From JAHJDO01 sp030671985 [NCBI: bacterium] (GTDB lineage: Bacteria; JAHJDO01): 6,149 nucleotides of DNA. Each line of letters opens with the position of its first letter. Position 1 is the first letter of the stretch. The stretch spans positions 1-6,149 of the forward strand of contig DAOVHI010000088.1 of assembly GCA_030671985.1 (NCBI GenBank), written 5' to 3'. Under the pieces are notes generated by a model. That model had not been told where the DNA came from. It saw only the letters and a list, made by a program, of their open reading frames with translations, and made no database searches. This document shows positions 1,332-1,725 of this stretch, one piece after another. The translations under genes and the position numbers were made by a program.

Positions 1332-1338
1332 ATTAAAT

Positions 1339-1343
1339 TCCTT
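1339..1343 (-). promoter_or_regulatory. Ribosome binding site of dnaA
   Basis: On the minus strand AAGGA, continuing as AAGGAATT, lies 7 bases before the ATG at 1331. This is a good Shine-Dalgarno position and supports that start. It overlaps a weak DnaA-box-like 9-mer, so DnaA bound there could affect expression; that last point is inference. Confidence 0.7.
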
Positions 1344-1350
1344 ATCAACT
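1342..1350 (+). promoter_or_regulatory. Weak DnaA-box-like 9-mer in the dnaA leader
   Basis: TTATCAACT matches the TTATCCACA consensus at 7 of 9 positions. It overlaps the dnaA ribosome binding site and lies 5 bases from the perfect box at 1356-1364. Its value comes from that proximity, because cooperative DnaA binding often uses a weak site beside a strong one. Alone it could be chance. Confidence 0.3.
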
Positions 1351-1355
1351 ACGAG

Positions 1356-1364
1356 TTATCCACA
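1356..1364 (+). promoter_or_regulatory. DnaA box, perfect consensus
   Basis: TTATCCACA is an exact copy of the high-affinity DnaA box. It lies 25 bases upstream of the dnaA start codon and inside the predicted dnaA leader, downstream of the candidate promoter at 1408-1437. DnaA bound here could take part in origin function and could also repress its own gene, a well-known form of dnaA control. The 11-mer AGTTATCCACA containing it resembles the two boxes near 1570-1591. Confidence 0.8.
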
Positions 1365-1407
1365 AATGCATAAATAGTGAAACCTTCACGGGCGCAAGCC
1401 ATTAGAC

Positions 1408-1437
1408 AGTATAAAGGCAGAAGGCTCTTGTCGGCAA
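1408..1437 (-). promoter_or_regulatory. Candidate dnaA promoter
   Basis: On the minus strand a -35-like TTGCCG (1432-1437, 4 of 6 consensus bases) and a -10 TATACT (1408-1413, 5 of 6) are separated by 18 bases. Transcription would start near 1401, giving a leader of about 70 bases that carries the perfect DnaA box and the ribosome binding site. The hexamers are reasonable but not strong, and the region is AT-rich, so a chance match is possible. Confidence 0.4.
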
Positions 1438-1458
1438 ACACAACTTCGCCTAAACAAC

Positions 1459-1470
1459 CTAACTTGTTAG
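1459..1470. repeat. Short inverted repeat upstream of the dnaA promoter
   Basis: CTAAC-TT-GTTAG forms a perfect 5-base inverted repeat around two bases. It sits about 20 bases upstream of the candidate dnaA -35, a place where an activator or origin-binding protein could act. It is short enough to be chance, and no known operator is recognised. Confidence 0.25.
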
Positions 1471-1501
1471 ATAGCAGTGGATTAGTGAAAAACAAAAACA
1501 A

Positions 1502-1510
1502 AGCGGATAA
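1502..1510 (-). promoter_or_regulatory. Weak DnaA-box-like 9-mer, reverse orientation
   Basis: The minus strand reads TTATCCGCT, 7 of 9 to the DnaA box. It keeps the TTATCC core and lies between the perfect box and the tandem pair. It is the only site I found in the region in the opposite orientation with that core. Confidence 0.35.
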
Positions 1511-1569
1511 TTGATCAACGACAACACGCCAATTTTTTGTATGGGAAAAATGTCTGACCACATAAGAAA

Positions 1570-1591
1570 AGTTATCCATAAGTTATCCCCA
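1570..1591 (+). promoter_or_regulatory. Tandem pair of DnaA boxes (11-base direct repeat)
   Basis: Two adjacent 11-mers, AGTTATCCATA (1570-1580) and AGTTATCCCCA (1581-1591), each contain a DnaA box with one mismatch from TTATCCACA. Their 11-base period places both on nearly the same face of the helix, which suits cooperative binding of two DnaA molecules in the same orientation. This is the strongest sign after the perfect box that the region binds DnaA oligomers. Confidence 0.7.
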
Positions 1592-1709
1592 GCACGTATT
1601 TGGATACAGCGCGCATTTGAGCACATAAAAATGACCAGCAAATTCTATCAAAAAGACATTTCTTGGGCAAGTGTTTTCTCTGTCCTATGTGTTCTTTGAT
1701 AGATTTTTG

Positions 1710-1718
1710 TGATATATT
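1710..1718 (+). promoter_or_regulatory. Extended -10 promoter of tgt, probably giving a leaderless mRNA
   Basis: TGATATATT is an extended -10: TG, one base, then TATATT (1713-1718, 5 of 6). The best -35 at normal spacing (TGTTCT at 1690-1695) is poor, as is usual for extended -10 promoters. Seven to eight bases downstream of the -10 is 1725-1726, the A of the tgt ATG. No Shine-Dalgarno is visible before that ATG. Both facts point to transcription starting at or next to the start codon. If tgt is read from a longer upstream transcript, the interpretation fails. Confidence 0.45.
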
Positions 1719-1725
1719 TACACAC

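Follow-up and report, generated by a model that had tools for sequence, protein, structure and literature searches.

In Bacillus subtilis the chromosome origin is bipartite, with DnaA boxes on both sides of dnaA and a box followed by DnaA-trios ahead of dnaN; both halves of oriC are essential in vivo, opening takes place on the dnaN side, and incC, the part between dnaA and dnaN, holds seven boxes (as reported in PMC6669920). In Clostridioides difficile, whose origin comprises oriC1 and oriC2, unwinding has been mapped to the dnaN side and was seen only with both halves present, a clear trio being found in the dnaA-dnaN half only (as described in PMC7561715). The underlying basal unwinding system, which consists of a DnaA box, a short spacer and DnaA-trios, has been predicted in 1755 of 2070 species (according to PMC8287927).

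The locus analysed here shares with B. subtilis the boxes on both sides of dnaA and the box and trios before dnaN, and with C. difficile the restriction of a clear trio to the dnaA-dnaN half. It differs from the former in its left neighbour, which is tgt-yajC-secDF here and rnpA-rpmH in Firmicutes (PMC7561715), in having fewer boxes than the seven of incC, and in the position of dciA between dnaN and gyrB. Unlike the C. difficile origin, which has been tested biochemically, it is known from sequence alone. We propose that the gap between dnaA and tgt probably makes up the upstream, regulatory half (oriC1-like) of a DnaA-dependent chromosome origin lying on both sides of dnaA, as in the bipartite type of B. 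subtilis, H. pylori and C. difficile. The proposal builds on the observed boxes, the conservation and spacing of these boxes, the gene order, a local turn in skew, AT-richness and the pattern of trios, which together suggest that the gap functions in chromosome initiation.

The window, that is, the whole stretch of 6,149 nucleotides that was analysed, is an entire contig (C31) of the source genome (G000), a 1.25-Mb draft in 152 contigs; the dnaN side of dnaA was therefore invisible to the first-pass annotation, which had proposed an origin between the following two genes.

3 to 1331, minus strand: dnaA (TIGR00362, 567 bits), cut by the contig end at base 3, with its start at 1331
1726 to 2847, plus strand: tgt, for tRNA guanosine(34) transglycosylase (TIGR00430, 515 bits), diverging from dnaA

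The product of dnaA carries the Pfam domains DnaA_N, Bac_DnaA and Bac_DnaA_C, corresponding to the N-terminal, ATPase and DNA-binding parts of the protein, and on the plus strand tgt is followed by yajC, secDF and then a gene for an FmdB-type zinc-ribbon protein. The gap between dnaA and tgt (1332-1725, 394 bp) is, as had been noted, the sole intergenic non-coding stretch of more than 300 bp in the window, and divergent genes leave it on both sides, dnaA on the minus and tgt on the plus strand. An AT-rich flank had been described as well. The gap is indeed mildly AT-rich (37.1% G+C, against 39.5% for the window), but it shows no marked instability: its least stable 50 bp starts at 1670, and 5.3% of the 50-mers in the window are equally or more unstable. 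A search of Rfam at gathering thresholds returned no match, and no intrinsic terminators were found near the gap. By eye, a TATATT stands about ten bases ahead of the tgt ATG (window 1712-1728), so the tgt mRNA may be leaderless.

The perfect DnaA box, the tandem pair of single-mismatch boxes and the weaker sites that the first-pass annotation had described in the gap were all found there again.

1356 to 1364, plus strand: perfect DnaA box TTATCCACA, downstream of the likely dnaA promoter and 24 nt ahead of the start codon of the gene
1572 to 1580, plus strand: DnaA box TTATCCATA, first member of the tandem pair, one mismatch
1583 to 1591, plus strand: DnaA box TTATCCCCA, second member of the tandem pair, one mismatch; perfect TTATCCACA in the four relatives
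1476 to 1510, minus strand: two weak boxes, TAATCCACT (1476-1484) and TTATCCGCT (1502-1510), not conserved

The tandem boxes are arranged head-to-tail at a start-to-start distance of 11 bp, and sites with two mismatches are located at 1342, 1476, 1502, 1599 and 1718. This cluster exceeds what is expected by chance: among 20,000 first-order Markov sequences modelled on the gap, at least three boxes with no more than one mismatch occurred at a frequency of 0.0003, falling to 0.0001 when a perfect box was required too. Among the perfect boxes listed genome-wide, a list that covers G001, G002, G004 and part of G003, the only clusters of two within 300 bp were this gap in G001 to G004 and one further place each in G001 (C25) and G002 (C27).

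Conservation of the gap was assessed in five genomes of the phylum (G000 to G004), which all belong to one genus and are all drafts of about 100 or more contigs, with skew readable at contig scale. Conserved boxes had been named beforehand as support for an origin, and alignment showed that each of the five genus members has dnaA with these boxes. Of the 356 alignment columns of the gap, 159 (45%) are invariant, and the longest invariant runs, of 20 bp (1569-1588) and 13 bp (1354-1366) in all five genomes, coincide with the tandem pair and the perfect box, respectively; no other invariant run is longer than 7 bp, and shuffling the invariant columns 20,000 times gave no runs such as these. The distance from the perfect box to the second tandem box, start to start, is held at 226-227 bp in every genome. 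The window differs from its four relatives in one base of the second tandem box, beside which it also has 17 extra alignment columns. The box block has a conserved border on its tgt side.

1644 to 1683, no strand: conserved tgt-side border of the box block, past which G001 and G004 diverge from the other genomes

These two diverge past TTTTCTCT or its counterpart.

A consensus scan placed a candidate promoter for dnaA between the tandem pair and the perfect box; the scanned region gave six promoter-like matches, against 2.1 expected in shuffles.

1408 to 1437, minus strand: candidate dnaA promoter, TTGCCG-18-TATACT

In the alignment, judged by eye, the -10 element of this candidate is conserved in all five genomes and the -35 element is not; the tandem pair is situated approximately 135-155 bp upstream of the -35. 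DnaA bound to the perfect box, between promoter and start codon, should repress its own gene, and the tandem pair, being well upstream of the promoter, would fit a nucleation site. In G001 (L119, about position 9977) and G004 (L118, about position 10136), judged by eye, 4 nt separate the end of the perfect box from the dnaA ATG, and no ribosome-binding site is evident.

On the other side of dnaA, the gene order is dnaA-dnaN-dciA-gyrB in G003 and G004, with the G003 proteins confirmed by their Pfam domains. In the source genome dnaN and the genes that follow it are on a second contig, C145, which ends within the dnaA-dnaN spacer; on the basis of synteny, C31 and C145 are predicted to adjoin. 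The spacer measures 196-197 bp in G003 and G004 and is very poor in G+C (16.3% in G003, 15.7% in G004 and 19.6% in the partial spacer of G000); between G003 and G004 the mean column identity is 91%, with short coding ends counted in. The spacer also contains the 50 bp of lowest stability in a stretch of 19.9 kb (L117). In both G003 and G004 a perfect DnaA box stands 15 bp past the dnaA stop codon, and ahead of dnaN a run of DnaA-trio repeats, TTACTATTACTATTA in G003 or TTACTATTATTATTA in G004, comes after a weaker box. DnaA boxes are present on both sides of dnaA in these two genomes, the window's own genome being only partly visible. The spacer contains two boxes with at most one mismatch in G003 and one in G004, compared with three in the gap of G003 and in that of the window; a larger cluster on the dnaN side of dnaA, which the first-pass annotation had named as evidence against its proposal, was thus not found. 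In three of the five genomes, assembly breaks fall within dnaA or the very AT-rich spacer (at the ends of C31 and C145 in G000, of C37 in G001, and of C108 and C56 in G002).

DnaA-trios were searched for in 110 dnaA loci with a detector of our own, which calls a trio score of at least 6 together with a box of no more than two mismatches in the 40 bp upstream. A total of 85 loci were scored and 25 were dropped, 20 of them without a dnaA or dnaN match and five with too little upstream or spacer DNA. The detector was positive in the dnaA-dnaN spacer of 39 of the 85 loci (37 of 83 once the genus is left out); none of the 85 gave a positive in the 400 bp upstream. For comparison, 20 shuffled sets per region gave a mean of 0.15 positives in each. 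Its value for the spacer was matched by none of 1000 shuffles for G003 and by 7 of 1000 for G004. A looser rule, adapted from the one in PMC8287927 (a box of up to two mismatches, a gap of 0-16 bp and at least three trios, middle base conserved), identified seven trios in the spacer of G003 (P 0.016), seven in that of G004 (P 0.018) and eight in the partial spacer of G000 (P 0.002), the three genomes in which the trio region is visible. These spacers therefore contain the arrangement that defines the basal unwinding system as set out in that report. They depart from it in that the trios are mostly AAT, where the consensus is GAT, and in the quality of the box that touches the trios, which has one mismatch in G003, three in G004 and two in G000; the spacer of G004 satisfies the adapted rule only through a two-mismatch box 12 bp away, and the trio run of G000 fails a stricter trio test. 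On the tgt side of dnaA, no conserved trio run was found among the five genomes: by the adapted rule, the window and G004 each have five T-rich trios alongside a weak box (P 0.047 and P 0.093, respectively), and the other three have none. The sequence signature of unwinding is accordingly located in the dnaA-dnaN spacer, with no conserved counterpart upstream.

These data bear on the first-pass proposal of a complete single origin within the tgt-dnaA gap, which we now regard as improbable. Such an origin would account for the three conserved boxes with at most one mismatch, for the local turn of skew in the gap and for the T-rich trios found with the looser rule, but the detector was positive upstream in no locus, the looser rule came up empty in three of the five gaps, and the gap is not strongly AT-rich. 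The proposal retains the boxes conserved in all five genomes, the divergent genes and the skew turn seen in three genomes; it loses the completeness of the origin, as there is neither a conserved trio run nor a marked AT-rich unwinding element. The placement was roughly right, with the gap most likely being only the upstream half; as regards location, the first-pass expectation that a poorly studied lineage would have its origin defined here is a reasonable, if putative, one.

A single origin in the dnaA-dnaN spacer, with the tgt-dnaA boxes serving only to autoregulate dnaA transcription or translation, is a less remote alternative that we nevertheless consider unlikely. It agrees with the location of the unwinding signatures and with a perfect box that follows the likely promoter and precedes dnaA, just ahead of the ATG in G001 and G004; however, the invariant tandem pair so far above the -35 goes beyond the need of simple repression, and the spacer itself has just one or two boxes with at most one mismatch. 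In the bipartite arrangement that we prefer, DnaA bound at the tandem boxes and at the promoter-proximal box would build a complex in the gap, and this complex would meet the DnaA molecules on the dnaA-dnaN spacer, the intervening dnaA gene being looped out. The duplex would then open in the very AT-rich spacer, where a box precedes the trio repeats, and the helicase would be loaded there, dciA being part of the same gene cluster. DnaA binding, looping, repression, unwinding and helicase loading are all predicted steps of this model.

Cumulative G-C skew reaches its minimum within the tgt-dnaA gap in all three contigs in which dnaA is next to tgt (at 19510 in G003, 36174 in G002 and 1665 in the window). 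In G001 the minimum is near tgt, some 17 kb from dnaA, and the contig of G004 has too little upstream DNA for a skew reading. The 86 ORFs regarded as leading had a third-position skew of +0.192, and the 13 regarded as lagging had one of +0.016; G001 was excluded from these totals, and at least three of the 13 lagging ORFs are overlapping shadow ORFs with strongly negative values. Long divergent gene runs lead away from the gap, and local skew follows gene direction; the minimum in the gap therefore fits an origin but is not independent proof of one. The skew minimum expected by the first-pass annotation was thus seen at contig scale in three genomes, with G001 as the exception and gene direction as a confounding factor.

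In some species oriC is located away from dnaA (PMC10225481); the gap could then be no more than a dnaA promoter under DnaA control, the chromosome having its oriC at another site. Perfect boxes across the genome are close to the background level set by the reversed pattern in G000 (23 against 18), and their excess over this control is modest at best in the set as a whole (26/18 in G001, 45/43 in G002, 48/34 in G003 and 38/21 in G004). Against such a distant origin stand the dnaA-dnaN-dciA-gyrB cluster with its AT-rich box-trio spacer and the divergent gene runs from the gap, and we judge it very improbable. No exact parS match was found in the five genomes; parS-like sites with one or two mismatches occur at seven places in four of the five, none of them on the dnaA or dnaN contigs. 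In a tree of DnaA (82 rows) the only well-supported set holding the window is its own genus, the DnaA of which has no close partner among the 80 named DnaA loci in the tree.

The first-pass annotation had also remarked on the unusual junction of dnaA with tgt. The two genes adjoin directly in three of the five genomes (window, G002 and G003). In G001 tgt is on the dnaA contig but approximately 17 kb away, with other genes between, and in G004, where the contig stops 446 bp before the dnaA reading frame, there was no match to tgt. Since the genes are so far apart in G001 while the boxes stay with dnaA, the junction is incidental and not meaningful in itself; the conserved unit is the box block and not the dnaA-tgt gene pair. 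As a hallmark of origins the adjacency was rejected, tgt being near dnaA in only two of 110 dnaA loci (window and G003), many of the 110 offering no more than some hundreds to 1,500 bases of upstream sequence, and the pair being broken in G001. A search of the literature on dnaA, tgt, yajC and the replication origin gave no title on a dnaA-tgt origin among the matches listed. The G001 stretch between tgt and the box block (L135, about 6500, to L119, about 9620) encodes, by eye, LacI-like regulators and sugar-related enzymes, and its genes mostly run toward dnaA.

We tentatively extend the bipartite model to the phylum, represented here by one genus: it may use a Bacillus-type two-part origin in which the tandem pair and the box at the dnaA start, at their fixed distance of 226-227 bp, jointly control dnaA expression and opening on the dnaN side. 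If this is true, with the box abutting the start codon in two species, DnaA binding could tie initiation directly to the expression of dnaA itself. The model offers a concrete proposal for the origin of an uncultured lineage, which is useful for ordering draft contigs and for deriving replication rates from coverage, and it supplies a further example for the published view that many bacteria share the box-trio unwinding system.

A box-gap-trio pattern also occurs outside the dnaA locus, with 16 overlapping matches in G003 against none for the reversed control, and numbers near the control over the other 96 genomes searched. In G003 an insertion-sequence-like gene carries at its 3' end a perfect DnaA box in the last codons, directly followed by two weaker 9-mers, a purine-rich stretch of about 30 bases and then, past the stop codon, TTACTACTACTA. 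With the trio stretch outside the reading frame, the repeat is not borne out as a transposase's coding end. Two copies of the gene are complete.

C26:52004-53423 (L174): complete copy of the G003 insertion-sequence-like gene
C26:125-1402 (L208): complete copy of the G003 insertion-sequence-like gene

By eye, the module shows three differences in about 75 bases between two copies whose proteins are 70% identical; a DnaA-linked mobile element or shared descent may explain it. The module is also present at the start of 11 G003 contigs (for example L149-L155), and a relative in G002 (C40; L170:2491-2575) shares this arrangement ahead of an istA-like gene; its three boxes, which adjoin one another, have one, zero and two mismatches.
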